Shown here piece after piece: positions 14,397-31,434 of a stretch of 32,482 bases of DNA. The position numbers and the translations under genes are program-made. The first letter of the stretch is position 1; each line of letters begins with the position of its first letter. The stretch spans positions 1-32,482 of the forward strand of contig JAIRYD010000133.1 in the NCBI GenBank assembly GCA_031267935.1. Direction: 5' to 3'. The stretch is from Tannerella sp. (lineage in GTDB: Bacteria > Bacteroidota > Bacteroidia > Bacteroidales > Tannerellaceae). The notes below the pieces were generated by a model. The model made no database searches. It had not been told where the DNA came from and saw only the letters and a list, made by a program, of their open reading frames with translations.

Positions 14397-15323
14397 CTAC
14401 TCCACCGTTCCCAAATATCCTTCCACCGCTGCAATCGACACATCCCTCAACACGACATGTTTATTCCTGTCCAGCAGGTATACAGACGGTATCGCCCGCA
14501 AGATATAAGTCTCATTATCCTCAATTTCTGCATTATAGTCATATCCGCTCAGCCACGACGGCGGTATCTCGTGCAAATGAGATTTCCATTCCTCCAGTTG
14601 TTTGTCCGGATATATTGCCAAGATCCGAAGGCGTTGCCGGTTTTGCATTTCATGGATCACGGCAGAATGTGTGATCCTGTCAATCAGCGTGATGCAGGCA
14701 TTACATCCCAAATTGTGAAAAACCAGCAGCACGTATTCCGAGCGAAGTTCCGAGAGCGATTGCTGCCGTCCCGAAGCCGTCCGGTAATGGATTTCCGCGG
14801 CAGGCGTACCCGGACGATTCTTTTGCAGGTAGCCCCAGAGCATTTTCAATCGGATCTTCCGCGTGTCATCCACTTTTTTCGATGCAAGCAGATGTGCCAG
14901 CACGGGCATATACAACTCGTCATTATGCATCGGTGAATCAGCCTCATAAAGATAACGTTCCAGGTTGAATGCAAAAAACGCATGTACGTCGGGGTCGTTC
15001 TCCGCCAAATCCATCAGGTGCGTAAGCCCCTGGCTTGCGGCATCGTACGAAGCATAGGAAAGAATTTCAATATAATTGACAAGCGCCTGCTCGGAAACCT
15101 TCGCCGCACTGCCGACGCCGGTCGTGTCGCGGAAGTCGAACCGATCCCAGTAATGCATCGCCAAATATTCGGCGCGCATCTGCGGATCGGTGTAGACGGC
15201 CGGAATGGTCACCATCGGAAAATCGCGCGGTTTCACGGCGATTTCCCGAGGTTTATCCTTGCAGCCCGACAACCACAAACACGGCAAGACAGCCAACACG
15301 ACGTATAAACGACTGCAATACAT
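14397..15323 (-). CDS. Lipoprotein with DUF5106-like N-terminus and thioredoxin-like C-terminal domain
   Basis: MYCSRLYVVLAVLPCLWLSGC lipobox (ATG 15323); DUF5106-like MRAEYLAMHYWDRFDFRDT; YVLLVFHNLGCNACITLI CxxC and AIPSVYLLDRNKHVVLRDV thioredoxin-fold tail. Confidence 0.8.
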   Translation of the reverse strand: MYCSRLYVVLAVLPCLWLSGCKDKPREIAVKPRDFPMVTIPAVYTDPQMRAEYLAMHYWDRFDFRDTTGVGSAAKVSEQALVNYIEILSYASYDAASQGLTHLMDLAENDPDVHAFFAFNLERYLYEADSPMHNDELYMPVLAHLLASKKVDDTRKIRLKMLWGYLQKNRPGTPAAEIHYRTASGRQQSLSELRSEYVLLVFHNLGCNACITLIDRITHSAVIHEMQNRQRLRILAIYPDKQLEEWKSHLHEIPPSWLSGYDYNAEIEDNETYILRAIPSVYLLDRNKHVVLRDVSIAAVEGYLGTVE

Positions 15324-15343
15324 ACATGTTCGCACTTTGCACA

Positions 15344-16831
15344 CTATCTTCGCGGCTGTTCGCGGCGCACCCGTACCAGTTCGCGCAGGTTATGGGCAGC
15401 CTCGTTCAGACCGGCCGCCTGCGCCTTTTTCAGACACATCTCAGCCTCGTCGTAACGGCCTTCATATATGTAGAGTACACCCAGGCAGTTGTCATATTCG
15501 GGCGAATCGATAGCCTGCACTTTCTCCATATACTCATGTGCCAGTCCGACATCACCTTCCGCCAATGCCGCAGCCGCACCGTTCAGATTGGCTATATCAT
15601 TGTTCGGGAAATGTTTGCGAGCAGTGATCAATGTCTCGTTAAACTCGCGACTCCCTTCGGGATAGGTGCGTGCAATCTGATACATCTCGTCCTGACTCAG
15701 CAACTTCGGGCGTTCCTTGATATGTCGCTTGCCTTCTTCGAGTGTAAAGTCGCGGACGACATAATTGATCTGGCAGTCCACTCTGCGCAGTTTGGGATAT
15801 AATTCGCGGTATATCTGCTTATAAGGCACTCCACCGCCCACTTTCTTAATCTGCGCTTCGCGCTTGTCAGGATCGTATTCGCGTTCTATAATCGACAGCA
15901 CGTCCCATTTTCTGGGCAACATATAATATACGTCCTGCACCATCCGTTTCAGGCCGTCCCAGTCTTCGCCGCCGACGCCCGTACGGAACAAACCGGATGG
16001 AATCCTGCTCATCTGCGCAAAATATTCACGCATGGCCTGCGCGCGCTTGAACGAAAGTTCGTAATTTAATTGCTGCGAACCTTCGGGCGACGCATAACCG
16101 CGCATCTCCACACCCGTCACTTTTACATCCGGGTCTGTAGCCACAATCACAATCATTTGATTTATCTTGTCCAACTCATTGCGGTTGTTACGGAAGTCCG
16201 GCAGGATGGTACTCTGTCCCTGCGGGAAGTCGAGATAAGCCTCACCGATCTCGTAGCGGATCTTCTCCTGTTCCTTCTCGGGTGCGAGATAGCGGAACTG
16301 AGGATTGATGACCACCTGTTTGCCGGCCGATACATCGGCCATCACCAGTTGCTGTTGCGGCACGCCGCAGCACCCGAACGCTTCCTCGCGAAATTGCAGC
16401 TTGGCGTCGGCCATCCAGTTCCGGTAGGGAATCGATACATGATAGGGGAGCCGGGCTTTTTTACGGTCGAATCGTTCCACCGCATATACCGGACCGGTCA
16501 TACTCACTTCGTAGTTGCTGACGGCTTCGAGCGGCGTCCCGTTCAAGGCTCTTTCTCTGACATCCAGTTTATAGCGAAGCTTGCTTTTGATAATAAGTTT
16601 CGGCAATTCCACCTTGTTCTGTCCAGATATGAGTATCGGCGTATATATAATGCTCTCAACGGATTTCATCTTTAATGCGCTCGCGTCGAATATCAGGTCG
16701 ACCTCTACCGTGTTGCCACTCTGTTCGATTTTCTCGGATACCACTTTTACCCGAAGTTGCGCCTGCAGGATCAAACATGCCGATAACAATGGCAGAATCA
16801 GACAGCCGCGTTTTAAATTATGTCTTTTCAT
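15344..16831 (-). CDS. DUF3868 / OmpA-like domain protein, fimbrial-locus associated
   Basis: MKRHNLKRGCLILPLLSACLILQAQ signal; VTGVEMRGYASPEGSQQLNYELSFKRAQAMREYFAQ OmpA-like motif; TPR-like C-terminus (AALAEGDVGLAHEYMEKVQAIDSPEYDNCLGVLYIYEGRYDEAEMCLKKA). Confidence 0.8.
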   Translation of the reverse strand: MKRHNLKRGCLILPLLSACLILQAQLRVKVVSEKIEQSGNTVEVDLIFDASALKMKSVESIIYTPILISGQNKVELPKLIIKSKLRYKLDVRERALNGTPLEAVSNYEVSMTGPVYAVERFDRKKARLPYHVSIPYRNWMADAKLQFREEAFGCCGVPQQQLVMADVSAGKQVVINPQFRYLAPEKEQEKIRYEIGEAYLDFPQGQSTILPDFRNNRNELDKINQMIVIVATDPDVKVTGVEMRGYASPEGSQQLNYELSFKRAQAMREYFAQMSRIPSGLFRTGVGGEDWDGLKRMVQDVYYMLPRKWDVLSIIEREYDPDKREAQIKKVGGGVPYKQIYRELYPKLRRVDCQINYVVRDFTLEEGKRHIKERPKLLSQDEMYQIARTYPEGSREFNETLITARKHFPNNDIANLNGAAAALAEGDVGLAHEYMEKVQAIDSPEYDNCLGVLYIYEGRYDEAEMCLKKAQAAGLNEAAHNLRELVRVRREQPRR

Positions 16832-16846
16832 CGCTTTCTTCCTTTC

Positions 16847-17464
16847 TTATTTTAGCATGAATACGGCTGTTATTCCGGCCTTCGTCGGTCCTATATAATG
16901 CATGGTGCTGCTCGAAAGTTTCTCGCTGCTGCATTTCTCGCAGTTGTATTTGTCGAACTGCATGTAGGCATAGCCCACGCCCAGTGTAAATTCAAGGCTG
17001 AAGCGGCTGGCAAGCACCAGATGGTAACCGTAAGAAACACCCGTACCTCCCAGCCATCCTTCAAAACGTTTGTTTTGAATACCATCGTTGTGATGATCGC
17101 CCCATCCCGCCGGGAGGAAAGACAACCCCCCGACGTTGTACTGGGCATATTGGGCATGCACACCGACAAAATGTCTGTTGAATTTCTCACACATCCACCA
17201 GCGCAGTTCGGGCTGGATCATGAAATGTTTAATTTTGCCTTCGGAAACCACATCTCCACTTCTTGGATCCAATTCTTTCTGCAAAACCCAAGGATTATAA
17301 TTTACGCCGACATCCAAAGTCAATTTATCCGACAAGGCGTATTCAAATCCCAGGTTGATCGTCGAAGTAGCATCGTACAGAATATTGCTTTTTATCGCAA
17401 AATTTTGACCGAAACCGCTGATGCTCAGCAGTAATGCTCCTGTCAGAAACACCCATCTCTTCAT
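16847..17464 (-). CDS. DUF3575-like outer-membrane beta-barrel-type protein
   Basis: MKRWVFLTGALLLSISGFGQNFAIKSNILYDATSTINLGFEYALSDKLTLDVGVNYNPW...GPTKAGITAVFMLK; signal peptide, alternating beta pattern. Confidence 0.82.
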   Translation of the reverse strand: MKRWVFLTGALLLSISGFGQNFAIKSNILYDATSTINLGFEYALSDKLTLDVGVNYNPWVLQKELDPRSGDVVSEGKIKHFMIQPELRWWMCEKFNRHFVGVHAQYAQYNVGGLSFLPAGWGDHHNDGIQNKRFEGWLGGTGVSYGYHLVLASRFSLEFTLGVGYAYMQFDKYNCEKCSSEKLSSSTMHYIGPTKAGITAVFMLK

Positions 17465-17505
17465 ATTACATCTGTTTTTTAAAATATCAATATCTAATTC
17501 ATGGG

Positions 17506-17513
17506 CAAAGGTA
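17506..17513 (-). promoter_or_regulatory. Bacteroidetes -7-like box (TACCTTTG, minus) upstream of DUF3575 gene
   Basis: caaaggta on + strand, 42 nt upstream of ATG 17464. Confidence 0.6.
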
Positions 17514-17582
17514 TTATTTTTTTTTCAGTTAACTACTGATTTATCCAAATTTATTACCAAAATATCAATATTTTTTTCTAAT

Positions 17583-18467
17583 TCACTTGCTTTTTTTCCC
17601 GTGCATTTTCCTGCCTGATTTTTCCATCACGCTTCTTTGGCAATTACGAATCAGTTCGAGCGGCGTACAGTCAAATTGCTTCCGGCAAAACCAGTTGAAA
17701 TGTGTAGCCGAATTGAAATTAAATTCCGTCATGAGGTCGCTGATCGTGACATCCGGATCCATCGCTTTCAGCTTCACCTGCCGGGCCATCTGATTCAGAA
17801 TCCATTGCCGGGCTGAGGTGCCGAACACGCTCTTGAACTTGCTGTCGAAGGTGGTCCGTCCCATGTTTGCCAGCGAGGCCAACTCACCTATTCCTCTCAC
17901 TTTCATATAATTCTGCATGATAAGGCTGCGGAAATCCGATTCGCCGAGTATTTCATGAAACAGTCGGGTCAGTTCGCGTCTTGTATAAAATGCACGCAAA
18001 ACCAAAAACAATTCTTTTTCCTTGATTTCGTGCAGATGTTCGCAATTCAAACCCGCGTCGAGATAAAATGCCATCGTATCAAGGAAATTCTCCAGCGGAT
18101 GCCGGAACGGGATGGCGCTCAACGGATCGTAAACATCCTCCCGGTCGAGCATGCGTTGAATAAACAATTTATCACAAACAGACCGTAACGTTCTGAATGA
18201 GAACACTATCAACTCGCTGTCCTGACGTACTTCGTACGTATACGGACAGCCTTTTGGAATTAACAACAGTTCTTTGGAAACCAATTTCTTGATTTCGTCT
18301 TCTATCTGGAAATACACGCTTCCCTTCATTAAGAATACCAAACTGTGCCCTTTCGTACTATAAAATTCAATAGTACCGCCTTCTGCAACTTTTACATGCT
18401 TGAATCCGTCCGATTCGTCTGTCTTGTAACTGATACACGACAGATGTTCTTTCTTATAAAAAATCAT
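17583..18467 (-). CDS. AraC-family transcriptional regulator
   Basis: N-terminal cupin-like domain; C-terminal HTH: MKVRGIGELASLANMGRTTFDSKFKSVFGTSARQWILNQMARQVKLKAMDPDVTISDLMTEFNFNSATHFNWFCRKQFDCTPLELI. Confidence 0.92.
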   Translation of the reverse strand: MIFYKKEHLSCISYKTDESDGFKHVKVAEGGTIEFYSTKGHSLVFLMKGSVYFQIEDEIKKLVSKELLLIPKGCPYTYEVRQDSELIVFSFRTLRSVCDKLFIQRMLDREDVYDPLSAIPFRHPLENFLDTMAFYLDAGLNCEHLHEIKEKELFLVLRAFYTRRELTRLFHEILGESDFRSLIMQNYMKVRGIGELASLANMGRTTFDSKFKSVFGTSARQWILNQMARQVKLKAMDPDVTISDLMTEFNFNSATHFNWFCRKQFDCTPLELIRNCQRSVMEKSGRKMHGKKSK

Positions 18468-18483
18468 ACCACTTTACTTTTAC

Positions 18484-19614
18484 TCAATTTATTACATATA
18501 TACTTTTAAACCATTCCAATTCTTCGTACCGCGCATCGAGATACGGATATTCGTCCTGCCGGATGTATGTCGTCAGGCCCGAGTGTTTTTCGATTTTAAA
18601 TCCCAGAGATGATGGGATAAATTCCGGTGTAGCAGCCTTGTAAATCACACAATTATCTACCATGCGCATCAATTCGGCCTGTTTTCCGGCGTCTTTCAGT
18701 ATGCGCGAAAAATAATCTTCAAAATCAAAAAACAGGTGATACGAGTAACGGTCGAAATGCTGGACATCGCCGATATCCACGCTTTTATTCACCGACACGT
18801 TTTCCCGCAGCCAGTCGGAAAGCGCATTCAACCCGTCCGTTCTGATGATGCTCAACGTCGCCGAGCGCAATTCGCCCGACTTCGTATCCACCTCTTCATA
18901 AGCGTCTTTCGTGAATTTTTCCAAATTCGCTTTCGGCTCGAAAAGCGCGTTGACCGACAATTCATATACTCCCTGAAAACCGGGAGACAGTATTTCGGCA
19001 GACGACGCCACGATATATTCCGCTTTGTTTCTCAGTTCATACGCGACTTCTATTCCGGCCATAAAACACGCTTCGAAAAGAATAAATTCAAACAGGCTGT
19101 CCGGTATTGCCGCCGCAAAGTCCGTCATACTCATCCAGTTTGCTCCATCCTGTACAAGAGATCGCGTCGGCATCGAACGCGGCGACGATAACGTCGCCTC
19201 CGGCAACCAGCCCGACGCATGAGAGAACAGGATCATTCCGTACGAATCAGCCGGATACATGTCTGCTACATCTCGCAATATCCCGGCAAATACCTCCGGC
19301 GATGCCGAATTTTCATCTTCATGTGCATAGATCTCCTTCGTCTTTTTTATCCCGTTTTCCACATATACTTCTTCCAACACGGCTCCTGTTCCATACAAAT
19401 CCCTGTATATGATCAGATATCCGTTCTTCCCGTTCCAGCCTTTCTTCAGCGATTCGACTTTGCCGTCCGCCTCGCCTCTCAGATTGTTGTCGCATCCGAT
19501 ATATACGAAAACCGTCCGTTTGAAATCCGGTTCTTCGGGTTTTTCGATATATTCCCGCACGCAGGACGACAGAAAAAACAGATAAATCATACACGCAAAA
19601 CATTTATACCGCAT
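18484..19614 (-). CDS. Clostripain-like (peptidase family C11) cysteine protease lipoprotein
   Basis: MRYKCFACMIYLFFLSSC lipobox from ATG 19614; VFVYIGCDNNLRGEADGKVESL, LFSHASGW (catalytic His region), FILFEACFMAGIEVAYEL (catalytic Cys region), VASSAEILSPGFQG. Confidence 0.87.
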   Translation of the reverse strand: MRYKCFACMIYLFFLSSCVREYIEKPEEPDFKRTVFVYIGCDNNLRGEADGKVESLKKGWNGKNGYLIIYRDLYGTGAVLEEVYVENGIKKTKEIYAHEDENSASPEVFAGILRDVADMYPADSYGMILFSHASGWLPEATLSSPRSMPTRSLVQDGANWMSMTDFAAAIPDSLFEFILFEACFMAGIEVAYELRNKAEYIVASSAEILSPGFQGVYELSVNALFEPKANLEKFTKDAYEEVDTKSGELRSATLSIIRTDGLNALSDWLRENVSVNKSVDIGDVQHFDRYSYHLFFDFEDYFSRILKDAGKQAELMRMVDNCVIYKAATPEFIPSSLGFKIEKHSGLTTYIRQDEYPYLDARYEELEWFKSIYVIN

Positions 19615-19710
19615 GCGGCGCCTTGCATATACGGATTCGCCGGATTGCTTCAGTGCATTCGCAATGGTGAAACGCGTATTTCCGTCTCTGCGGAAAACGA
19701 ATCCGTAAAG

Positions 19711-19718
19711 CAAATGTA
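19711..19718 (-). promoter_or_regulatory. Possible -7-like box (TACATTTG, minus) upstream of the C11 protease gene
   Basis: caaatgta on + strand, about 97 nt upstream of ATG 19614. Confidence 0.4.
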
Positions 19719-20114
19719 CAGGATAAATCTTGCGGTTTACACACCTGTACGTGTCGCACAAAGTATGCTCGCCACTATTGTTCCCGTCCGTGTTTTTGCA
19801 TGTGCTCATACATTTCAAATATTTGTCCAAAAACGCCCCTGCAAGGGCTTCTTCGAGGTATTCCGGCGCTCCGGATTATCCTACTTTCCCATTTTCGGCC
19901 GCAATAATACATTATTATTCCCTAATTCACAAATTTCCGGATAAATTTTTTTCTACAAAATGACACAATTTCATGTAATTTGCGGTGAAACAACTATTTT
20001 AAAAATTGACTAAATTTCGTTTTCATGCGGAAGTTATTACAAAATATAACTGATTTGGCATATTCGGCACATTCGCCGACGACACAAACGCGCCGTATCT
20101 TCCGCACCCGATTT

Positions 20115-23100
20115 TCAATTCTCCACATACACTTTTCGAGCCGGCTGCGCCTGGCCTCTCACCTGCGTTTTCACAAAATATATCCGGCCGGGCGCCACCG
20201 GAATCGACAGATGCGTACCCGCCGTTTCTCCGCGGTACACCGTCGTCCCCGTCACGTCGTATACCGTCACGCCCGCAAGCCGTCCGTCCGGATCTTCGAT
20301 GTGGATGCGGCCTGCTGCGGCATATATGTGCACATCGTCATCCGGCACGCTTTCCACGCCTGTCGGTGCGCCGATGTATAGACTGAAACGATCGTTCACT
20401 TCCGTCGCGCCCGCCACATTCGACGGCTGCACGGTAAACACGTACGTCGACTGCCGCTGCAGGTCGATCTCGCGGTCGCGCTGGCCGTGATCGACCAGAT
20501 ACACCGCACGTCCGAAGTCCGCCACGCCGGAAAAGTCGAGCGTCACAGGCGCATCCGTACTTTCCAGACGAAGACCCAGCTTCACCGGTGCGCTGAAATC
20601 GCCGCTGCGATTGATGGCCAGTGCGTCACGGTCGTCGGTGAGCGTATACACCTGCACGGGCACGCCGTCGACAAACGCCTTGCGCGAATCCTCGCCGGGG
20701 TCGTACGCGGCAGCGGCGCCTGTTTCGTTGCGCAGCAACGTCGCGTTGGCATACGACTGCTGGTGCGCCGTGATCCGCAGCATGCCGCGTTCCGACGGCG
20801 CACTGCGCAGTGCATAGCCCCGCGACGGGCCTGTGGTCGTCGTCATGGAGGCCTTCATCTGCAATGTGTTGAACGAGGCGCCCTGCCGCTTCATGACGAA
20901 AAACGACTGAAACGGCGCCACAAGCGGTTCCGTGCCGGCCGGCATCACTGCGTCCGCAATGATGTAGCGCATCGTATCGCCCGTGGTGAGCAGCGTAATG
21001 AATCCTTCGTCCACATTGCCGCTCCATATCTTATATGAATTTTCTATATTGCCGGCGTTGTCCGTCAGAAATTCAGCCACTTTCAGGTAGGCTGCAAACG
21101 GATTGACCACCTGTATCAGCGACCAGGTCGCGTCTACGGGCAGCGCCAGCACACCTGCCGCAGACAGGGAACCGTGCGTAATGAATTTTTCGGGATTGCC
21201 GCGCGTCAGAACGCCCGACGGTTGTCCGCCGATCCCCGTGTAGGATGTCGCAACTTTCGGGAAAGTGAAACGTTTGCCTTCCGTATCCGGCTGGATGTAT
21301 ATGTTGAACGGCCGGCCCAGCGGCAACGCCACGCCCATGCTTCCGAATGTGGCCGTAAACGTCTTTTCCGCCGCCACGGAACCCGGTATGTCCGGATTGC
21401 CCGACTGGAAGAAGTTCATGTAAACCGAACCCCAGTCGGGCTGGTTTGTGGCTTTGGGAAAATGGTAATCGCCCGTATACGTGTGTGTAAGCGGAGCCGA
21501 CCACATGACGAAACGGTCTTTTTCCGACGAAACGGGTTCGAAGTCGATCGAAGCGTTCCCGTACGTGAGGAGATGGATGCCGGCGATCATGGCGCGGTCT
21601 TCGAGATGGATATTACCGCATGCCGTTTCCGCCGTCAGTTCGGGATAGTGCGGACAGTCCTTGCCGAGGATGACATCCACGCAATCGCCGTTGGGCGCCC
21701 ACGTCATGGCGAGCGGCCGGCCGTTTTTGATCTGTACCCAGTTGTCCGGATTGAACCAGTCCGTATCGACGGCGCCCGTCCACCGGGCCGTGTCGGCGCC
21801 CAAAGGCGTGCCCAGCACCTTGACCGTGATTCGGCCCATTGGGAAACTCTTCGTCCGGAAAGGATACCACACGCCATCGGACGAAGGGATATTTCCGAAA
21901 TGCGGTCGCACGTAGAACGAAGTGTCGGCAGACGGATTGGTAAGGACCGGAAATGTATTGCCGATATAGGTCGAATCGCTTCTGTACCACCAGAACTCCA
22001 CATGTGCAGGCTCCTCGCTGAGGCAGACCGTATAGGACGGTACGCCCCGGCACACGGTGAAACTGCCCTGACAGCTCTCGAGCAGATAAATATATACGTC
22101 GGCCGTACGGGTGACGCTTTCGCATGTCAGTTTATAGGTGAAATGCACCAGATTGCTGCCGTACGACGGACCGGGAGCCGTATACATGATCTTGTTGTTC
22201 ACGATCTGAATGGAGCCGAACGTGCCGCTCAGCACGCCCGGGCCGCCCGGCGTCGTGATGTTGGCGGCCGTGAGCGGCAGGTTGTTGCACGGCGAATCCA
22301 GTATGTCGTTTGCAAAAACGTCGATCAGGACCGTGCCGTAATGCGGCACGGTGGCCAGGTCTTCGCGGACAAGGAATGTGGCTACCTCCACATGGTTGTT
22401 ACCCCAGTCGCATTCGAGGATCGCGTCCGGCACCATATTCCCGTTCACCAGCGTACCGCCTACAATAATATCGTAAACCCCCGCCACATCGACAACGGTA
22501 ATCTCGTACGTCTTCACATCGCCCGGATACAATGTCGTGCCGAGGACTTGATTGTAAATGGAAGGGTTGGCTTCGTCGTTGAGATAAATCCTGACCGGTA
22601 TGCTCGGATGCAGGGAGGCATCGCCGATGTTTCTCACCTTGAATGTCAGTTTTTTCGTGCTGACGTTGAGCGCAGCATCGATCACTTCGGCGTCGGGCGT
22701 GAGTACAATCGGCCGGATGATTTCCCGGCCAACCGCATGTTCGAAACTCGACGAGATGACGGTCTGCATGATATTGCCGTTATACACGAACGTCTTTTCG
22801 AGATCGGTGTCGTTCTTGTAAAAAGCATAGTCGGGATCCAGTGGATGGAACACCCTTTCCGGCATCGTGAGATCTGCCTTGATCTTCATCGGATGATAGT
22901 GAAACTGATTCCAGACGGGCGGCGCGGGCGCCAGATCGCGGTTTATTCCTTCCACGACGAGGATAAACCCGGCCGCATTGGTTCCGGTCGCATTGGATCG
23001 TCCCATGACTATGATATCGGCCGAACCGTCGCCATCCACATCGGCAATGGCGGGGTATTCATAACCGGTATAAGAAGTACAGGGATCCTTGCGCAAACGG

Positions 23101-24824
23101 ATCACATTCGGCTTATTGGCAGTCGTGGCATCAAGTCTTACATACGATTCCCGCGCCGAGATGATACGCAACGTTTGTTCGTCGCGGTAGCAAATATCCG
23201 CCATGCCGTCGTTGTCGAAATCGAACAGCGTAAAACCGGTATTGATGGAATCGTCATCGTGTTCCAGCATAAAGGACACTTTCAGACGGTCGTTCGACGC
23301 TACGCCGCTGTTGTTATCCCATGTAAATGAAATCAGACATCCGGCCACACTGGTGCTGGATAATGTCTTGGACGAAGTAACCCCTCCATCGGTCACATTC
23401 GGATGGACGGGAATTCCGGATAAAGTTGTACTGGTGCTGGGAGCAAAAGGTCTGCCGCAAATCAGGGAAATTTCCGGCAGTTTTTTCCCGTTCTGCACCT
23501 TTCCGTCTATATCGCCGATATAAAGATACGAACCCACTCCTTCCGCAGCAGGGCAATATGCCGTAAATGTTCTTGTTGTTAAAAGTGTTCCTGCCGTCAT
23601 CTCTTCATTCGGTCTCCAGACTCTTATCGTGTGCTCCATACGATAGCCGGAAGTCCTGCTAATATTGTGCGTGACGACTTCGGCCTTTCCGTCGCCGTCG
23701 ATATCGGCTACGGCCGTCCGGCCGTCCGGTACGCCGGCACAGGTCAACGTTTCATAAAGTCTTGTGACCATGTTAATGTGATGATAAATTTTCCCGCCGG
23801 CTATGTAATCGTAAATGCCGTCGCCGTCGATATCGTAGATCGCCGGAAAGGTGATGGAATGTTCATTATGATTATCAAAACTGAGGCCGGCGCCTACATA
23901 AGCGGTTTTGTTTGCAGCAATGGGACTGGAACCCAGGTCCTCAAATTTTGTAATACCTACACCGGTGGCCGCATTGTATACTTTATTGTAAACAATAAGT
24001 TCCGGCACGCCGTCCCCGTTCATATCCACAATTTGGGGAGTTGGACGATCATATATATTTGCACCGGAAGAAGACTCGTTACTGGCCCCGGAAGCATCAT
24101 ACCGGGTCGTGGTTCTCCATCTTTCCACAAGATTGAAGTTGTCGTCGGTGACTTCGAATGATGCGGTTTGTTTTTTATATAGAGCGGTGGACGAGTTATT
24201 GAAGCAGACAATGATTTCGCCGAATCTGTTGGGGCCTATGGCATTTACCAGCGCAATCTGTGAAGGGGAACCATGATAACCCGACTGGCAATGTTCAACG
24301 CCACCACCTGGGAGCGCAAACTTCCTGAGTACGGCGCCGGTCTGGCCGTTAAAGATATATAAGTAAGGCGAATTGTAATTTATACCGGTTCCATCCAAAC
24401 TCAGCGCCACGATTTCCGGCTTCCCGTCGCCATTAAGATCACCAACCATCGGTACGGTAAAACCATACAAACGATCTATGCCTTCTCCTCCGCCATTGCC
24501 TCCCTGTTGCCAGAATTTCTGTTGCGGTCCGAAAACTACCGTCGGCATTTCCGTAAAACAGCGATACAGCGTAGAATCGACATATCCGGTCGGATAGGGC
24601 GCCGCGCGCAAAAGAGGGATGCGGGGGCGTTCATTCTGTTCGCCGATCGTGAACTGTTTGAAATTGAATTCCAATGTTTTTGCAGCCGGCAACGTATCGG
24701 TCGGCACGGTCGTTCCGACAGGCTCGGAAGGGTGATTGATTCCGGCATACGACCCTGCTCCGCATAAAAGCGCGCACACGATCATCCCTTCGCGTAACAA
24801 CTTTTTTACATTCCAAACTTTCAT
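20115..24824 (-). CDS. 1569-aa secreted FG-GAP/VCBS-repeat (integrin-alpha-like) protein with T9SS-type C-terminal tail
   Basis: Type I signal (MKVWNVKKLLREGMIVCALLCGAGSYAG); DLNGDGKPEIVALS, DMNGDGVPELIVYN, DIDGDGIYDYIAGG, DIDGDGKAEVVTHN, DFDNDGMADICYRD, DVDGDGSADIIVMG; C-term VHIYAAAGRIHIEDPDGRLAGVTVYDVTGTTVYRGETAGTHLSIPVAPGRIYFVKTQ...KVYVEN. Confidence 0.88.
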   Translation of the reverse strand: MKVWNVKKLLREGMIVCALLCGAGSYAGINHPSEPVGTTVPTDTLPAAKTLEFNFKQFTIGEQNERPRIPLLRAAPYPTGYVDSTLYRCFTEMPTVVFGPQQKFWQQGGNGGGEGIDRLYGFTVPMVGDLNGDGKPEIVALSLDGTGINYNSPYLYIFNGQTGAVLRKFALPGGGVEHCQSGYHGSPSQIALVNAIGPNRFGEIIVCFNNSSTALYKKQTASFEVTDDNFNLVERWRTTTRYDASGASNESSSGANIYDRPTPQIVDMNGDGVPELIVYNKVYNAATGVGITKFEDLGSSPIAANKTAYVGAGLSFDNHNEHSITFPAIYDIDGDGIYDYIAGGKIYHHINMVTRLYETLTCAGVPDGRTAVADIDGDGKAEVVTHNISRTSGYRMEHTIRVWRPNEEMTAGTLLTTRTFTAYCPAAEGVGSYLYIGDIDGKVQNGKKLPEISLICGRPFAPSTSTTLSGIPVHPNVTDGGVTSSKTLSSTSVAGCLISFTWDNNSGVASNDRLKVSFMLEHDDDSINTGFTLFDFDNDGMADICYRDEQTLRIISARESYVRLDATTANKPNVIRLRKDPCTSYTGYEYPAIADVDGDGSADIIVMGRSNATGTNAAGFILVVEGINRDLAPAPPVWNQFHYHPMKIKADLTMPERVFHPLDPDYAFYKNDTDLEKTFVYNGNIMQTVISSSFEHAVGREIIRPIVLTPDAEVIDAALNVSTKKLTFKVRNIGDASLHPSIPVRIYLNDEANPSIYNQVLGTTLYPGDVKTYEITVVDVAGVYDIIVGGTLVNGNMVPDAILECDWGNNHVEVATFLVREDLATVPHYGTVLIDVFANDILDSPCNNLPLTAANITTPGGPGVLSGTFGSIQIVNNKIMYTAPGPSYGSNLVHFTYKLTCESVTRTADVYIYLLESCQGSFTVCRGVPSYTVCLSEEPAHVEFWWYRSDSTYIGNTFPVLTNPSADTSFYVRPHFGNIPSSDGVWYPFRTKSFPMGRITVKVLGTPLGADTARWTGAVDTDWFNPDNWVQIKNGRPLAMTWAPNGDCVDVILGKDCPHYPELTAETACGNIHLEDRAMIAGIHLLTYGNASIDFEPVSSEKDRFVMWSAPLTHTYTGDYHFPKATNQPDWGSVYMNFFQSGNPDIPGSVAAEKTFTATFGSMGVALPLGRPFNIYIQPDTEGKRFTFPKVATSYTGIGGQPSGVLTRGNPEKFITHGSLSAAGVLALPVDATWSLIQVVNPFAAYLKVAEFLTDNAGNIENSYKIWSGNVDEGFITLLTTGDTMRYIIADAVMPAGTEPLVAPFQSFFVMKRQGASFNTLQMKASMTTTTGPSRGYALRSAPSERGMLRITAHQQSYANATLLRNETGAAAAYDPGEDSRKAFVDGVPVQVYTLTDDRDALAINRSGDFSAPVKLGLRLESTDAPVTLDFSGVADFGRAVYLVDHGQRDREIDLQRQSTYVFTVQPSNVAGATEVNDRFSLYIGAPTGVESVPDDDVHIYAAAGRIHIEDPDGRLAGVTVYDVTGTTVYRGETAGTHLSIPVAPGRIYFVKTQVRGQAQPARKVYVEN

Positions 24825-24835
24825 TGTTTTGAACT

Positions 24836-27133
24836 TTATTCGTTATATTTTTCCTTCATGCACCGCACCGAGAATCCGTTCGCTCTGAACGCATTTTCGA
24901 TCGTGGCGCTTCCATTCCGGATATGCAGGCATTTGGCGCTCGGTCCAGCCGTTTCGGCCGTCCAGTAGTAACCGGAGGCGCCGACGTCGAAGAGCTGTCC
25001 CGTGCTGAAGTCGAGGCCGCCTGCAGCGGGCAGCACGAGGCCGCCTTCATAAGCCTGTCCGTAATTCCATCCGCCGACGGGTGTGAGCGCCTCCAGAAAT
25101 TCGGCGGCCGTCGGCACGCGCCATCCGGCAGGACACGGGTCGTACGGCGATTTCAGTCCGCCTGTGGTCCACAGCGAATTGTCGGCGTCGTCCGTGTCCG
25201 ACCAGGTGTACCAGGGTGGCAGCGTGCTCGTGATAAACGTCGCGGGACGTCGGTGCGACTCTTCCAGCGGATTGCTGCCGAGCGTCGTCACGTCCTGCGG
25301 AGAAACGTATGGTAAGGGCACTGCACTCCCCCGGTATGTAGATCGCTGTGTGCTGCCCGTCAGGGATTGGCTTCCCACTAAAGGTTCTTTCCGTCCCCAC
25401 TGGTACAGCAGTCCGTACGAGTCGACACTGCCCGGCGCATACGCCTTGGCGCCCAGGTTGCGGTCCATGAAGATCCGCCCCTTGTAGTTCACCTGACCGG
25501 CCGGACTGTCGGGATCATAACCGTTCCAGACATGCCACGACCAGACAATGTTGCTGCTTCCGTCGCGCAATACGAATACGGCATTGCCGGCGCCGTTCAG
25601 CGTGACGCCGGCAGGATTGGCACTCGGATACGTACTTGAAACGATGTTCGGTACGTCTTCCCACAGCAGATCGATCGTTGCGCCGGCACGGATTGTGCCG
25701 TCCATACCGGCTGTTGCCCTGTCAATAATAAGATTCGCGGCCGTCGCACTGCTCGTAAAGGATGCATACTGGCGCACGTGAATGGTTTTTGTCAGCGTAC
25801 CGGCCCGGAAAGTGATGGCGCCTTCGCGTACATACGCATCATATAGTTTATTGACCGAAAAGCCGGTATACGAAGGAGTCGTCGTCTGGGAGAGAAAAAA
25901 CGAACCGTTGTAGCTCACCGTCCATGCCGGAACTCCGGGATAATTGGTTTCTACGTAGATCTGTTTTGCATCTGTTTCGGTCATAACCATGTCGCCTTCG
26001 CTCAGGGCGAGATAATACTGCCCGTCGAAAACAAATTCTTTCATGCGTGCGTCGGTCACGCTCAGGTCGTATTCCAGATTGGCGCTCCGGATGGCTGCCG
26101 CCTCTTCTTTAGTGGCAAATCCCGGACGCGATATGTTTCTGATATTGATGAGATAGCGATGATTGCGCAGGAGGGGCAGCGTGTTGTCGGACGCATCGAT
26201 AAAGTCTACGCGGTAATACAGTTCCGGTCCGTTGTCATATTCGGCGCCGATCACAAGAAAAGTGGGATTGGGTGCGACGGCGGCTTCGGGGACGTATATT
26301 TCGCTGAAAAATTTGTTCGTGCCAATGATATATTCCTGTGTCGCAGTGATGGGCGTCGCATCCGTCGGGACGGATGGAGCCGTCGCTTTATGAAGCGTCC
26401 TGTCGAAGTTCGGCAGGCTGGGCGCCAGAAAACCTCTGTTTCGCGGATTATATACGTATATATGCTTAATTTTAAAATGATTACCGAATCCGAGGGAAGG
26501 GTCGACGGCAAACAGATCCACGCCTACATCTATTTTGGCAATGCTGCGCACGAGCGTCACTTCGACGCGTTCCATCACGACCGGATCCTGCACGAGCACA
26601 TATTCCGGGTCGTCGGATTCGCCCCACATCGGGAATGGCGCATACGGATTGGTTTGCCATTTCCCGCTGAAATTGAATTTCAATCTGTTATATACGTCGC
26701 CGAGTGTTTCGCCCGTCGCAATCGCGGCGCCGTCCAACACCGTGGAGGCGTTGGCGACCACCACCAGCTTCAACGGATTTTTATATCTTTGAAGTTTGAC
26801 GTCTGCGTCTTTCAGGTTGCCGTTCACTTCGCCGGCGCCCGGCTTTATTTTGGCGGGGTCGACCGTGATTCTGTAGCAGAACGTATCCACGCCTGAACCG
26901 TTTTTGGAAAAGGCAAGGATGTCCAGTTCCCGGATTTCGTTTTCATCGTCGGGCGAAAGGGCGTAAGTCGTAGCAGGATGAAGCACGCCGGGCACCGTCA
27001 TGCGGATCTTTACGTCGGACGTTTCCGCCGCCACATCGCCCCCTTCACCGTCAGGGGGATCCATGCTCTGGTGCTCCATCGAACACGCCACAAGCCCCCA
27101 CAACAGAAGAATTATATAATACCACTTTTTCAT
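24836..27133 (-). CDS. Fimbrillin-like lipoprotein with C-terminal FISUMP (Fibrobacter succinogenes major paralogous) domain; candidate tip/accessory pilin
   Basis: MKKWYYIILLLWGLVACS lipobox; ATTYALSPDDENEIRELDILAFSKNG fimbrillin-type strand; GRIFMDRNLGAKAYAPGSVDSYGLLYQWGRKEPL...DPCPAGWRVPTAAEFLEAL...YYWTAE...FSVRCMKE FISUMP pattern. Confidence 0.85.
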   Translation of the reverse strand: MKKWYYIILLLWGLVACSMEHQSMDPPDGEGGDVAAETSDVKIRMTVPGVLHPATTYALSPDDENEIRELDILAFSKNGSGVDTFCYRITVDPAKIKPGAGEVNGNLKDADVKLQRYKNPLKLVVVANASTVLDGAAIATGETLGDVYNRLKFNFSGKWQTNPYAPFPMWGESDDPEYVLVQDPVVMERVEVTLVRSIAKIDVGVDLFAVDPSLGFGNHFKIKHIYVYNPRNRGFLAPSLPNFDRTLHKATAPSVPTDATPITATQEYIIGTNKFFSEIYVPEAAVAPNPTFLVIGAEYDNGPELYYRVDFIDASDNTLPLLRNHRYLINIRNISRPGFATKEEAAAIRSANLEYDLSVTDARMKEFVFDGQYYLALSEGDMVMTETDAKQIYVETNYPGVPAWTVSYNGSFFLSQTTTPSYTGFSVNKLYDAYVREGAITFRAGTLTKTIHVRQYASFTSSATAANLIIDRATAGMDGTIRAGATIDLLWEDVPNIVSSTYPSANPAGVTLNGAGNAVFVLRDGSSNIVWSWHVWNGYDPDSPAGQVNYKGRIFMDRNLGAKAYAPGSVDSYGLLYQWGRKEPLVGSQSLTGSTQRSTYRGSAVPLPYVSPQDVTTLGSNPLEESHRRPATFITSTLPPWYTWSDTDDADNSLWTTGGLKSPYDPCPAGWRVPTAAEFLEALTPVGGWNYGQAYEGGLVLPAAGGLDFSTGQLFDVGASGYYWTAETAGPSAKCLHIRNGSATIENAFRANGFSVRCMKEKYNE

Positions 27134-27201
27134 TTCCCATTATTTAATCATGAAAAATCAATAACCTGCCGCATATCCTGCTTGTTCCTTCTCATACGCC
27201 A

Positions 27202-28629
27202 TCAACTGGAAGGATTCTGCATCACTCTGAAATTCTTCGTCATATTCCCCGCCTTGACGCTGATGGTTCCCGTCCGGGAAACCGTTTCCGGTCCTACAAT
27301 GATTTTCATATACCCGTCATGACTGTCGTCGACAGTGATCCATCCGTCGGAGGTGGTTGCCGTCCATCCCGCAGGGTGGCTCGTTTCGACGCCGACGTAA
27401 AACGTGCCGCCCGCATTGCCTGTCGTGATCGTACTCAGGTTCAGGCTCAGCCAGTGCATCTCCTTCACGACGACATTGCTCATGTCGGCCAGATTCCAGT
27501 CAAGAATCTCGACGCCGAGATTGCCTTTCTTGGAATAAAACGCGCTGTCGGCGGTGTTATGTCCGTCGCCGGTTACGTTTTTGATAATGAACTTATAACG
27601 GTGGTTCCGCAACAGCGGTCTGTATGCTTCAAATACTCCGCCGCTGTTTCTCTTTTCGAAGTCAAGGCGATAATATTGTGTGACGCCCAGCGGCGTATAC
27701 GTGCCGCCCACGACCAGACACGTGGCGGCAAAATCGTCTCCGCGATCGACGGCTGCGGCTTCGTATGTGTAAATCGTCTGCAGCAACTTGTGGTCGCCCG
27801 GCGGCACGGCGTAATGCTGGCCGGACCAAACGGTAAGCGGCTGCAACATATTTTCGGTCGGGATTGAAGGACTCGTCACTCTCATTCCGTCGCCATCCGT
27901 GATGATTCCGCTTGTGAGATCGTTGGGAGCTACGCGTCCGTATACTTTACGGTTATACAGGTAGACGTCCGTCAACGTAAAATCGGGTATGACGGCCGGC
28001 TCGTCCGCATATACTTCAATCGAAACTACGCTCCGCAAAAGCGTGATGCCCTGCAGACCGTGTTCTTTCATACTGTCGTTAATCCTCAGATTGCCGGCGC
28101 TCTGTCCCCACATGGGCAAAGGTTTGTACGATCCCGAAGTCACATTCCATACCATCAGATTATGAGACAGCAACCGGGCCAGCAATGCTTCTTTCTGCGC
28201 GCCGTGGGCAGGACTCAATGTTTCCAGTTCGTCTTCCACATTGGCAAGAAACACCAGCCGACAGTCAGTCGTATCGTTTTTCTGAAGTACTACGCTGAAC
28301 GACTTTTCGTTATATGGCGTCGTTTCCGGCGGAGTGATTGTGGTCGGAATGCCTTTCGCGCGATAGTCGAAATATTCGGCCTGCGTATCTTCGTCGACAC
28401 GGAACACCAGCACGTCGATGGTTCGGATCTCGTTTTCCGCGGCTTCGCTCATGCCGTACGTATGCGGCGTGGCGTTGGGCATGCGCACCGTGAAGACGAT
28501 ATGTTTCAGCGGCTCGCCCGATATCGGGCCGGGCACCTCGACAGCGGATGTACACGCCGTCAGCATCGCCAGCAAAAGGCATGATGCGGCGAGGGTGAAA
28601 CAGTATGCTATTTTATGTAACTCAGTCAT
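27202..28629 (-). CDS. Fimbrillin-like accessory lipoprotein with BACON-like C-terminal domain
   Basis: Lipobox LLLAMLTAC; HTYGMSEAAENEIRTIDVLVFRVDED fimbrillin motif; C-term HPAGWTATTSDGWITVDDSHDGYMKIIVGPETVSRTGTISVKAGNMTKNFRVMQ BACON-like. Confidence 0.8.
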   Translation of the reverse strand: MTELHKIAYCFTLAASCLLLAMLTACTSAVEVPGPISGEPLKHIVFTVRMPNATPHTYGMSEAAENEIRTIDVLVFRVDEDTQAEYFDYRAKGIPTTITPPETTPYNEKSFSVVLQKNDTTDCRLVFLANVEDELETLSPAHGAQKEALLARLLSHNLMVWNVTSGSYKPLPMWGQSAGNLRINDSMKEHGLQGITLLRSVVSIEVYADEPAVIPDFTLTDVYLYNRKVYGRVAPNDLTSGIITDGDGMRVTSPSIPTENMLQPLTVWSGQHYAVPPGDHKLLQTIYTYEAAAVDRGDDFAATCLVVGGTYTPLGVTQYYRLDFEKRNSGGVFEAYRPLLRNHRYKFIIKNVTGDGHNTADSAFYSKKGNLGVEILDWNLADMSNVVVKEMHWLSLNLSTITTGNAGGTFYVGVETSHPAGWTATTSDGWITVDDSHDGYMKIIVGPETVSRTGTISVKAGNMTKNFRVMQNPSS

Positions 28630-28647
28630 CGTTACTTCATCGTTTTT

Positions 28648-29742
28648 TTACATGTGCAATTCATTGTCACTGACGGAAAAATTCCAGTTTCCGATACTTA
28701 CGCCGACAGACAGCGATGTTTCATCGTCGGGGTTGCCGTCTATCGTAAACCGCATATAGAATACATACATGGTGGTGAAATCCAACTGCAACCGTCCTAC
28801 GGCATAGCGTTGAAGAATGTCTATCAGATCGATCCCTTCGTCCAGTCCGTTGATTCGCCAGGGTTCGCCGTTCCGGTAAAATTTCAACATCGGCCTGGCA
28901 CGTATTGTGCCGCGATCGTTGATCATCAGCGTGCTGCGCGATGTATACCATTCCGTGCCCGTATCGTCGACCGGCGAAAAACCTGATTTATAGTAATTCG
29001 TAGGTGCGCTGATCAGACTGTTGTCAAAATCGTAATAGCTGTTGTTGGCGGCAATCACCGTTTCGAACACGTCGTCGACGGGGTCGGAGCTTCTCACGGC
29101 GGTACCGTCGATCCGAATATTAAACATATAGGTGTCCTGCCGCAGATGGAGGCGCAGCGAATCGTAGGCTTCGGCACGGGTGGAAGGGGTTATCACGACA
29201 TTGTCCAGCACGCCGTAATACAGATTGTCCACGCCGGCGGTAATGGTGTCGCCCGGGAAAAGATAGTTGACGGAAAAATCGCTGAAATGACTGATATGCT
29301 TTATCGGCGTGACCGGCGCTATGGCAAAATTGCTTCGCCTCAGACCGCCCCATGCCACAAACTTGTAATACCCGGCCGCCAGCGAAACGGGCATGTAATA
29401 GATGCCTTTCTGTCTGAGCGTCGGCTGCAGGTCGGTGTATTTATCGATGTACACACCTGTCACCGCGTCGAACACGTATAAATCTACCTGCGATACGGCG
29501 TCCATATTGGAAGGGCGAATGCCCTTTTCGACCGTCAGGACTTCGGGATCGGCGTCCGTTATCTGCTCGACATCGTCGTATTCAAAAAATATGCGCACCG
29601 AACGCACCGTGTCGCCACTCACATACGGCGCCGGTGCACAGTCGTCCATATTGTCATTGATACACGACTGAAAAAACAGGCACGTACCGAATACGGTCGC
29701 AAGGATCACCTGCAGGAAATATTTTTTTGACGCTCGTTTCAT
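28648..29742 (-). CDS. FimB/Mfa2-family fimbrial anchor lipoprotein
   Basis: TCLFFQSCINDNMDDCAPAP lipobox region typical of Mfa2/FimB; VDLYVFDAVTGVYIDKYTD; LAAGYYKFVAWGG. Confidence 0.87.
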   Translation of the reverse strand: MKRASKKYFLQVILATVFGTCLFFQSCINDNMDDCAPAPYVSGDTVRSVRIFFEYDDVEQITDADPEVLTVEKGIRPSNMDAVSQVDLYVFDAVTGVYIDKYTDLQPTLRQKGIYYMPVSLAAGYYKFVAWGGLRRSNFAIAPVTPIKHISHFSDFSVNYLFPGDTITAGVDNLYYGVLDNVVITPSTRAEAYDSLRLHLRQDTYMFNIRIDGTAVRSSDPVDDVFETVIAANNSYYDFDNSLISAPTNYYKSGFSPVDDTGTEWYTSRSTLMINDRGTIRARPMLKFYRNGEPWRINGLDEGIDLIDILQRYAVGRLQLDFTTMYVFYMRFTIDGNPDDETSLSVGVSIGNWNFSVSDNELHM

Positions 29743-29938
29743 TTTTTTCTTCGTAATAATTATCCTTCACTTCAATCTCCGGTCGATAAAATGTTTTTTT
29801 CGGCCGTCAACAGTCTCAATAATTCAATTCACACACAACACGAACCAGGCTGTTGGGGGCTTCTCCCCCACCCTTTCGTCGGACGGATGCTTCCGACGCC
29901 GGCGCACATCGCCTTGCCTGATTCACAAAGGGAACAAA

Positions 29939-29974
29939 AGGGGGGATGCAAAACCTGAAGGCATGCATGCCCCC
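29939..29974 (-). terminator. Possible attenuating terminator between the fimbrillin gene and the Mfa2-like gene
   Basis: Minus strand GGGGGCATGCA...TGCATCCCCCCTTTTGTT: G/C-rich stem with one bulge and a short T-tract. Confidence 0.5.
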
Positions 29975-30006
29975 TTCTTTGTACAATATAAACTAACAAA
30001 ATAATA

Positions 30007-31434
30007 TCAAAGTCCTCCCAATTCCGTATCAGATTCCACCAGCGTCCAGGGCTGAATGAGCACATCTACCGTAATCAGCGTGATTGTTCCCAGCGGATTT
30101 TCCGGATCCGGCGGTTCCGGATTAGAATAACCTAACGCATTGAATTTCGTAATTCTCGAATCATAGTAAAAATTTCGGACAGCCGCATAAGGCGCCGAAT
30201 ATTCCGTCTTCGGGTCCAGATATACCAGATAATAGCAATATCCGTCTTTATAATTGCCGAGGTATGAGGCGCTCGGTGTAGCAGTGCCCCATGCGCTTCC
30301 GATCGCGGCATTGGTGAAATACAGATATTCGCCTCCGGCCGTAATATATACGTACAGATCATTCTGCACAACCGTATTCGCAGGTCGCGTAAGCGAATCC
30401 GTCTGTCCGGGCGTAAATGCCGTAACGATCTGGTCGGGACGGAATTTGGCTCGTATGGAAACATACGACATCAAACCCTGCAGGTACGGCACGTCGCTGG
30501 TATTCTCTACGGTGTATTTCGAAACTCTACTGGCGACTGCTGTTCCATCGTCATCCGCATCTGCGTATGCGGCGGAAATGATGGAAGTATTAGTACCGAA
30601 ATCATGTACGAAATCGGCGCCATAGGTCGAATAGTTACTGTCATAATTCGGGTCTTCGATGATTCCGGAAGTAACTTTTTGCAAAGGATAGAGTTTCGTG
30701 TTTACATTACCCATACAGAACGTCAAGTCTCCCGTAGCCGTAGTCAGGAATGTGGCGCCCGATGCCGTATTGTTCGGCGAGGTAGACAGGGTCGGAGCCT
30801 TGCGAACCGTCGCTTTAGCTGCCAGACGTGCTACCGTAATCGTAAATTCATTCTCGTGAGTGGTCCGGGGATCCACCACGCCGGCGGCAATCGTAAATGT
30901 GGTATTGGCCGCCGTATTGACGCTGAACATGGCAAAACCGTCCGTAGCATCAGAAATGGCATTTCTCAGTGCGAGACCGGTAGCCGAATAAACGCCCTGC
31001 ACCCCTCCACTGCCTTCGATCACGGCTTTAGCCGCTGCCGGCAGGTTGATACCCACATAGATTCGCTTCGTTCCGCTCAACACTTCAATCGAGTTTTTCA
31101 TTACATATTTGTTGTCGTCTACCAAGTCAAAATCAGCGGGATATGCCAATGACACATGCTTTTCGAGCGTTCCGCCATACACATACACATCTACAGTCTT
31201 CACGACCACTTCAGTCGCTTTTGCATTCGGGTCTGCTGCATAAGTAGTTACCTTCGGAATGGTAATCGACATCTTCGTCGGTTCTCCCTCTACGCCCGAA
31301 ACAGGGTCTATCCCGTCACTGGTCGTAGTCGTACAGCTTGTGAAACACAAGCCGGTTGCGGCAAAAGCCGCGAAAAGTCCGAGTGCAATCATTCGGCCTT
31401 TTCCAATTCTCTTTTTTCCATCTGTTTTTTTCAT
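30007..31434 (-). CDS. Mfa1-family fimbrillin lipoprotein (major-subunit candidate)
   Basis: Lipobox GLCFTSC; VTTYAADPNAKATEVVVKTVDVYVYGG; RIYVGINLPAAAKAVIEG; C-terminal GTITLITVDVLIQPWTLVESDTEL typical of Mfa1-like fimbrillins; first gene of the locus. Confidence 0.87.
   Translation of the reverse strand: MKKTDGKKRIGKGRMIALGLFAAFAATGLCFTSCTTTTSDGIDPVSGVEGEPTKMSITIPKVTTYAADPNAKATEVVVKTVDVYVYGGTLEKHVSLAYPADFDLVDDNKYVMKNSIEVLSGTKRIYVGINLPAAAKAVIEGSGGVQGVYSATGLALRNAISDATDGFAMFSVNTAANTTFTIAAGVVDPRTTHENEFTITVARLAAKATVRKAPTLSTSPNNTASGATFLTTATGDLTFCMGNVNTKLYPLQKVTSGIIEDPNYDSNYSTYGADFVHDFGTNTSIISAAYADADDDGTAVASRVSKYTVENTSDVPYLQGLMSYVSIRAKFRPDQIVTAFTPGQTDSLTRPANTVVQNDLYVYITAGGEYLYFTNAAIGSAWGTATPSASYLGNYKDGYCYYLVYLDPKTEYSAPYAAVRNFYYDSRITKFNALGYSNPEPPDPENPLGTITLITVDVLIQPWTLVESDTELGGL

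Follow-up and report, generated by a model that had tools for sequence, protein, structure and literature searches.

A type V pilus locus of Tannerella sp. encodes a C11 protease with a substituted S1 residue and pilins with tyrosine at the predicted maturation site

INTRODUCTION

Which protease matures the pilins of a type V pilus, and after which residue, is the question raised by a locus at positions 14397 to 31434 of Tannerella sp. contig JAIRYD010000133.1 (C212), the entire 32,482-nucleotide length of which was analyzed here and is called the window. In Porphyromonas gingivalis, the pilin precursors Mfa1, Mfa3, and Mfa4 are cut after Arg49, Arg43, and Arg54, respectively, in the loop between strands 1 and 2 or at its edge, and solved precursors of related pilins expose an Arg or Lys in that loop (PMC5789003); polymerization of Mfa1 requires Rgp (PMC5954841). 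A 2025 review describes a surface clostripain, a protease of the C11 family, as cutting type V pilins during assembly (PMC12632263), so a general role for C11 proteases is not new. The window locus encodes a C11 protease of its own, and comparison with other loci suggests that the cutter and the cutting site have changed together.

RESULTS AND DISCUSSION

The pilins of the locus carry Tyr at the predicted maturation site

Profile matches and open reading frame positions place ten genes, all on the minus strand, at 14397 to 31434, in a Tannerellaceae genome of 2.84 Mb with a completeness of 99.8%, and we hold with high confidence that they make up a genuine type V (Mfa1-type) pilus locus. A preliminary description of this DNA had listed the same ten co-directional genes over about 17 kb and read them as a self-contained type V pilus system; strand, coordinates, and gene identities bear out the list, and the profile matches of the shaft pilin and the Mfa2 anchor support the reading. 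The pilins, their anchor, and the protease are the following (arrows mark predicted cuts).

30007 to 31434, minus strand: shaft pilin, an Mfa1-type lipoprotein fimbrillin of 475 amino acids (aa) (NF038041), with the predicted site VTT-Y65↓A66-AD in the strand 1-2 loop
28648 to 29742, minus strand: Mfa2/FimB-type anchor lipoprotein, 364 aa (PF08842, 101.8 bits; cutoff, 21.2)
27202 to 28629, minus strand: tip or accessory pilin with a C-terminal BACON-like domain, 475 aa, with the predicted site PHT-Y↓G-MSE
24836 to 27133, minus strand: tip or accessory pilin with a FISUMP tail, 765 aa, with the predicted site ATT-Y↓A-LSP
18484 to 19614, minus strand: C11 protease lipoprotein, 376 aa (PF03415, 105 bits), with a His132/Cys183 dyad and Glu181 as the S1 residue (Asp177 in PmC11)

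The shaft pilin scores 202 bits with NF038041 (cutoff, 130) and 39 bits with PF15495 (cutoff, 27). PDB sequence searches with this protein and one tip pilin gave no match, so we used structure prediction. The shaft pilin model, which has a modest predicted local distance difference test score of 55, has Mfa1 (5nf3) as its top PDB match, with an E value of 4.8e-13, and FimA (4q98) also among the top matches; its N terminus is modeled as a strand at residues 52 to 60, a loop with Tyr65, and a strand at residues 80 to 86. A search of the window genome with PF06321 (FimA) gave no match, so NF038041 and PF08842 were used instead, and since the PF08842 profile search found no second Mfa2 in that genome, the window locus looks like its only Mfa2-type locus. 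The two fimbrillin-like accessories with BACON and FISUMP tails that had been named in the preliminary description are present as genes, but their tail matches are weak (BACON, 3e-5; TIGR02145, 28 bits), and their FimD_tip_adhes scores of 55 and 47 bits, respectively, fall under the cutoff of 170. In a site-anchored alignment, both share an N-terminal strand-site-strand pattern with the shaft pilin.

We read the maturation site from this alignment, which was turned into a profile with the P1 residue (the residue after which the cut falls) masked. A mechanical rule for picking P1 made wrong picks, so the counts were also read by eye. With the masked profile, P1 was Tyr, Arg, or Lys in 111 of the 127 to 129 pilins (42, 39, and 30, respectively), and several of the approximately 18 other residues are visible misalignments. 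All three window pilins have Tyr at P1, where the usual Arg or Lys maturation site is expected. The column that holds Tyr is the one that holds Arg or Lys in sister loci, and in the shaft pilin model the predicted site sits in the strand 1-2 loop, the same place as the cuts in Mfa1, Mfa3, and Mfa4. The Y65-A66 pair is unchanged in nine shaft pilins that come from three families and are only 30 to 55% identical to the window shaft pilin, and Lys and Arg are both absent from positions -6 to +10 in 16 of the 29 Tyr-site pilins. The P1 reading leaves out the shaft pilins of four genomes (G479, G316, G060, and G458), the C11 proteases of which score well under the pilus-linked ones.

The linked C11 protease has Glu in place of the S1 Asp

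The original C11 open reading frame of 448 aa was over-called: the lipoprotein starts at 19614, not 19830, in line with close orthologues of 371 to 373 aa, and the corrected start leaves 500 bp between this gene and that of a 1,569-aa FG-GAP protein (the giant). The window C11 protease aligns directly with PmC11 of Parabacteroides merdae (3uws/4yec), and its His/Cys dyad is intact, while Asp177 is replaced by Glu181, Thr204 by Ile, and Asp207 by Pro. The residue table shows Glu at the Asp177 place (E-type), Ile or Val at 204, and Pro at 207 in every pilus-linked C11 protease. In PmC11, Asp177 is the primary S1 residue, which is held to set basic specificity and is conserved through the C11 family (PMC4850288). 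Other sampled C11 proteases in four genomes that bear an E-type enzyme keep this Asp (L138, L146, L152, and L153), and one of these, L152 on contig C60, is a general Asp-type C11 protease of the window genome itself. That the locus has its own protease, as had been proposed, is supported; the protease is of more interest than was stated then because its subfamily accompanies a changed pilin maturation site.

A second Glu-S1 C11 subfamily is found in Tannerella (L135, L137, L144, and L145), one to two genes upstream of what on inspection appears to be the core of the type IX secretion system (T9SS), porP-porK-porL-porM-porN, so E-type C11 proteases have further roles. The L137 enzyme has an N-terminal Ig-like extension.

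Site and protease covary across three families

A linked C11 protease of the same subfamily is present in 13 loci, 10 of them in Tannerellaceae (the window, L060, L077, L082, L126, L128, L130, L132, L134, and L136) and 3 in two other families (L155, L156, and L157). By eye, the 30 pilins of these loci have 27 Tyr and 3 Arg or Lys residues at P1. In genomes without an E-type C11 protease, P1 is Arg or Lys, with the exception of one Tyr pilin (L081). Tyr sites also occur in 11 loci without a linked C11 protease (L075, L080, L081, L087, L172, L201, L207, L210, L211, L212, and L213), which come from nine genomes, and eight of these nine have an E-type C11 protease elsewhere. Several of these unlinked loci are mixed (e.g., KRY or RRY), whereas the C11-linked loci are mostly pure Tyr. 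The presence of an E-type enzyme elsewhere in eight of nine genomes and the contrast between mixed and pure loci both go beyond what simple descent would give.

Parabacteroides sp. PH5-46 (NZ_JARXXA010000014; G152) has a Lys-site locus (L062), a Tyr-site locus (L172), and E-type C11 proteases in the same genome. In L207, L212, and L213, one Tyr pilin stands with two Arg or Lys pilins, and a Glu-type C11 protease is encoded elsewhere in the genome. In genome G252 the locus is split between two contigs and both halves are kept, with the Mfa2-side genes through the giant in L075 and the C11-AraC-DUF3575-DUF3868-thioredoxin genes in L114.

Proposed maturation pathway and alternatives

We think it fairly probable that the pilins of the locus are matured by its dedicated C11 protease, which would cut them after Tyr. 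The locus would build one type V pilus. Its shaft and tip pilins, once exported and lipidated, would move to the cell surface, where the C11 lipoprotein would cleave each pilin in the strand 1-2 loop after Tyr (Y↓A or Y↓G) instead of after Arg or Lys, and this cleavage would remove the lipidated first strand and leave the groove open for strand exchange. Mfa2, uncut, would anchor the fiber, the giant would be exported by the T9SS and is probably an Mfa5-like terminal adhesin, the AraC-family protein would act as the regulator, and the DUF3575, DUF3868, and thioredoxin proteins would serve as envelope accessories.

Several observations weigh against this pathway. Two lysines lie within positions -6 to +10 of the Tyr site in the window shaft pilin. 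The P1 counts made by eye are a matter of judgment, and the mechanical rule visibly errs both ways (e.g., in L062, L065, L077, and L175); the Fisher P values for the association, 2.6e-5 by locus and 7.5e-6 by genome, use the mechanical calls and ignore relatedness. Three of the C11-linked loci (L126, L132, and L136) have one Arg or Lys pilin each, and genome G156 has one Tyr pilin though its C11 proteases are all Asp-type. In a tree of Mfa2 sequences from 55 loci, the Tyr and C11 loci form almost one clade, with four changes in C11 linkage and three in majority-Tyr state, so the association largely reflects a single old coupling that has persisted across long distances rather than repeated parallel events; an independent-pairs test on this tree had no power. 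Most E-type C11 proteases retain Arg at the place of the PmC11 self-cleavage residue, Lys147, which would be odd in a strictly Tyr-specific enzyme, so activation may need another protease or the E-type enzyme may still accept Arg. Finally, E-type C11 proteases are found away from pili too, some of them adjoining T9SS genes.

Some of these points would fit an ordinary type V locus, in which Tyr is structural and a general Asp-type clostripain cuts the pilins at a nearby Lys or Arg, the locus C11 protease being a neighbor with a different task. The window genome does encode such a general enzyme, its shaft pilin has the two lysines, and E-type proteases exist apart from pili, but more than half of the Tyr-site pilins lack both basic residues in the surrounding interval, the C11 linkage recurs in three families, and the Tyr column is the Arg/Lys column of sister loci; we consider this account unlikely. 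The locus C11 protease could also be a basic or broad enzyme that acts on other substrates (the giant, the tip pilins, or pilus release) while some other protease cuts the Tyr sites. The retained Arg at the self-cleavage place and the three linked loci with one Arg or Lys pilin speak for this, yet the S1 Asp is replaced by Glu in every linked C11 protease, and profile scans recognized no further protease gene in the window locus, which leaves it quite improbable to us.

A further alternative is compatible with Tyr-directed maturation by the locus C11 protease but puts the weight on the giant, which would be functionally linked to this pilus as its Mfa5-like, defining adhesin.

20115 to 24824, minus strand: FG-GAP giant, 1,569 aa (PF13517/PF01839, 53 and 47 bits), with a C-terminal T9SS sorting domain

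Seven D-x-D/N-G motifs at residues 129 to 600 suggest, from the sequence, a seven-bladed FG-GAP propeller that may resemble that of integrin alpha chains. Sequence models of the T9SS tail are weak and below threshold; the predicted fold of the C-terminal 76 residues matches the RemA sorting domain (8gl6_D) with a template modeling score of 0.83, and the window genome has a T9SS (SprA, 2,886 bits) and 19 type-A tail matches elsewhere. The giant lies immediately after tip-like pilins in 14 loci, and on the tree of its relatives the pilus label is clustered (6 changes versus approximately 14 in shuffles). Position and tail thus agree with the FG-GAP adhesin in the Mfa5 position that had been described earlier, but a Pfam scan found no vWA domain in the giant, of 45 sampled relatives only 18 are pilus-linked and 27 stand outside pilus loci, and 50 pilus loci collected solely through Mfa2 all lack a giant. 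The giant is also missing from nine C11-linked pilus loci, and it is common for a pilus locus to have a giant but no C11 protease, so the giant is an optional module, although its linkage to pilus loci is nonrandom. Its role as the defining adhesin is a tentative possibility. The preliminary description had made functional linkage depend on whether FG-GAP and C11 homologs lie at random with respect to fimbrillin genes; comparison of gene neighborhoods shows that both linkages are nonrandom.

Of the 125 genomes in the family, 65 have relatives of the giant, and the nearest named orthologues are in the Tannerella metagenome genomes Nc350_bin189 and Gx481_bin112. Two giants stand in tandem inside the pilus locus, as a duplication, in L060 (7812 to 17567) and L078 (1 to 9050), and a relative of the FG-GAP region lies within a 5,177-aa open frame in genome G034 (C99, 11868 to 14222).

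Relation to known systems

The window locus resembles P. gingivalis Mfa1-5 in the order shaft pilin, anchor, tip pilins, and large T9SS-tailed protein, in its lipoprotein precursors, and in a maturation site in the strand 1-2 loop (PMC5789003, PMC5954841). It differs in its predicted Tyr instead of Arg at P1, in a locus-encoded C11 protease where the gingipains are unlinked, and in the FG-GAP repeats of a large protein in which no vWA domain was found. The surface clostripain of Bacteroides (fragipain) is likewise a C11 lipoprotein; it acts on surface lipoproteins and is stated in the review to cut type V pilins as well (PMC12632263), whereas the window copy is encoded in the locus, has the Asp-to-Glu change at S1, and stands with Tyr-site pilins. 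PmC11 shares an alignable sequence and the dyad with the window enzyme and differs at the three positions given above. Globupain shows that a C11 enzyme can prefer P1 residues other than Arg and Lys (PMC12280095); it is archaeal, prefers norleucine, Leu, or Asn, and has no reported link to pili.

In the open-licence literature, we found no description of a changed C11 pocket paired with changed pilin sites. The chances seem to us evenly balanced that a pilus-dedicated clostripain branch switched from basic to Tyr P1 specificity along with the sites of all its pilins, insulating one pilus system from the general Arg/Lys protease. If this is true, two kinds of type V pilus would be matured separately within one cell. 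The literature consulted here covers the protease that matures type V pilins outside Porphyromonas only briefly, and the matched change in protease and substrate makes this question directly testable. For studies of the C11 family, the window locus provides a naturally occurring specificity-switch pair, and the match between site and protease is a way to predict pilus-protease pairing from sequence.

Regulator, envelope accessory genes, and surroundings

The remaining four genes of the locus are listed here.

17583 to 18467, minus strand: AraC-family regulator (HTH_18, 55 bits)
16847 to 17464, minus strand: DUF3575 protein, predicted outer-membrane barrel (PF12099, 217 bits)
15344 to 16831, minus strand: DUF3868/OmpA-like/TPR protein (PF12984, 45 bits; OmpA and TPR weak)
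14397 to 15344, minus strand: DUF5106 and thioredoxin-like lipoprotein (PF17127, 153 bits; PF13905 [Thioredoxin_8], 40 bits)

We rejected the DUF3575/DUF3868 module as a special feature of the window locus: of 66 loci, 46 have DUF3868 on the upstream side of Mfa2 and 3 have it on the downstream side, which makes the module standard in Mfa2 loci, and only its position in the window, at the far end of the locus, is unusual, being found in the window's lineage only. DUF5106-thioredoxin lipoproteins adjoin the C11 gene in L156 and L157, from other families, which supports their membership in such loci. L148, L151, and L146 have no pilin genes nearby, and their Asp-type C11 genes lie divergently beside genes for DUF3575 (and short DUF3868) proteins.

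Scans of the locus for the Bacteroidales promoter pattern and terminators gave results at chance level, and Rfam and tRNA scans gave no match. The intergenic gaps inside the locus include ones of 118, 264, and 500 bp, and a single transcript is a candidate only. To the left of the pilus locus lie housekeeping genes, encoding DUF1015 and class V aminotransferase proteins, dxs, trkA, trkH, an ABC-F protein, and RNase Y.

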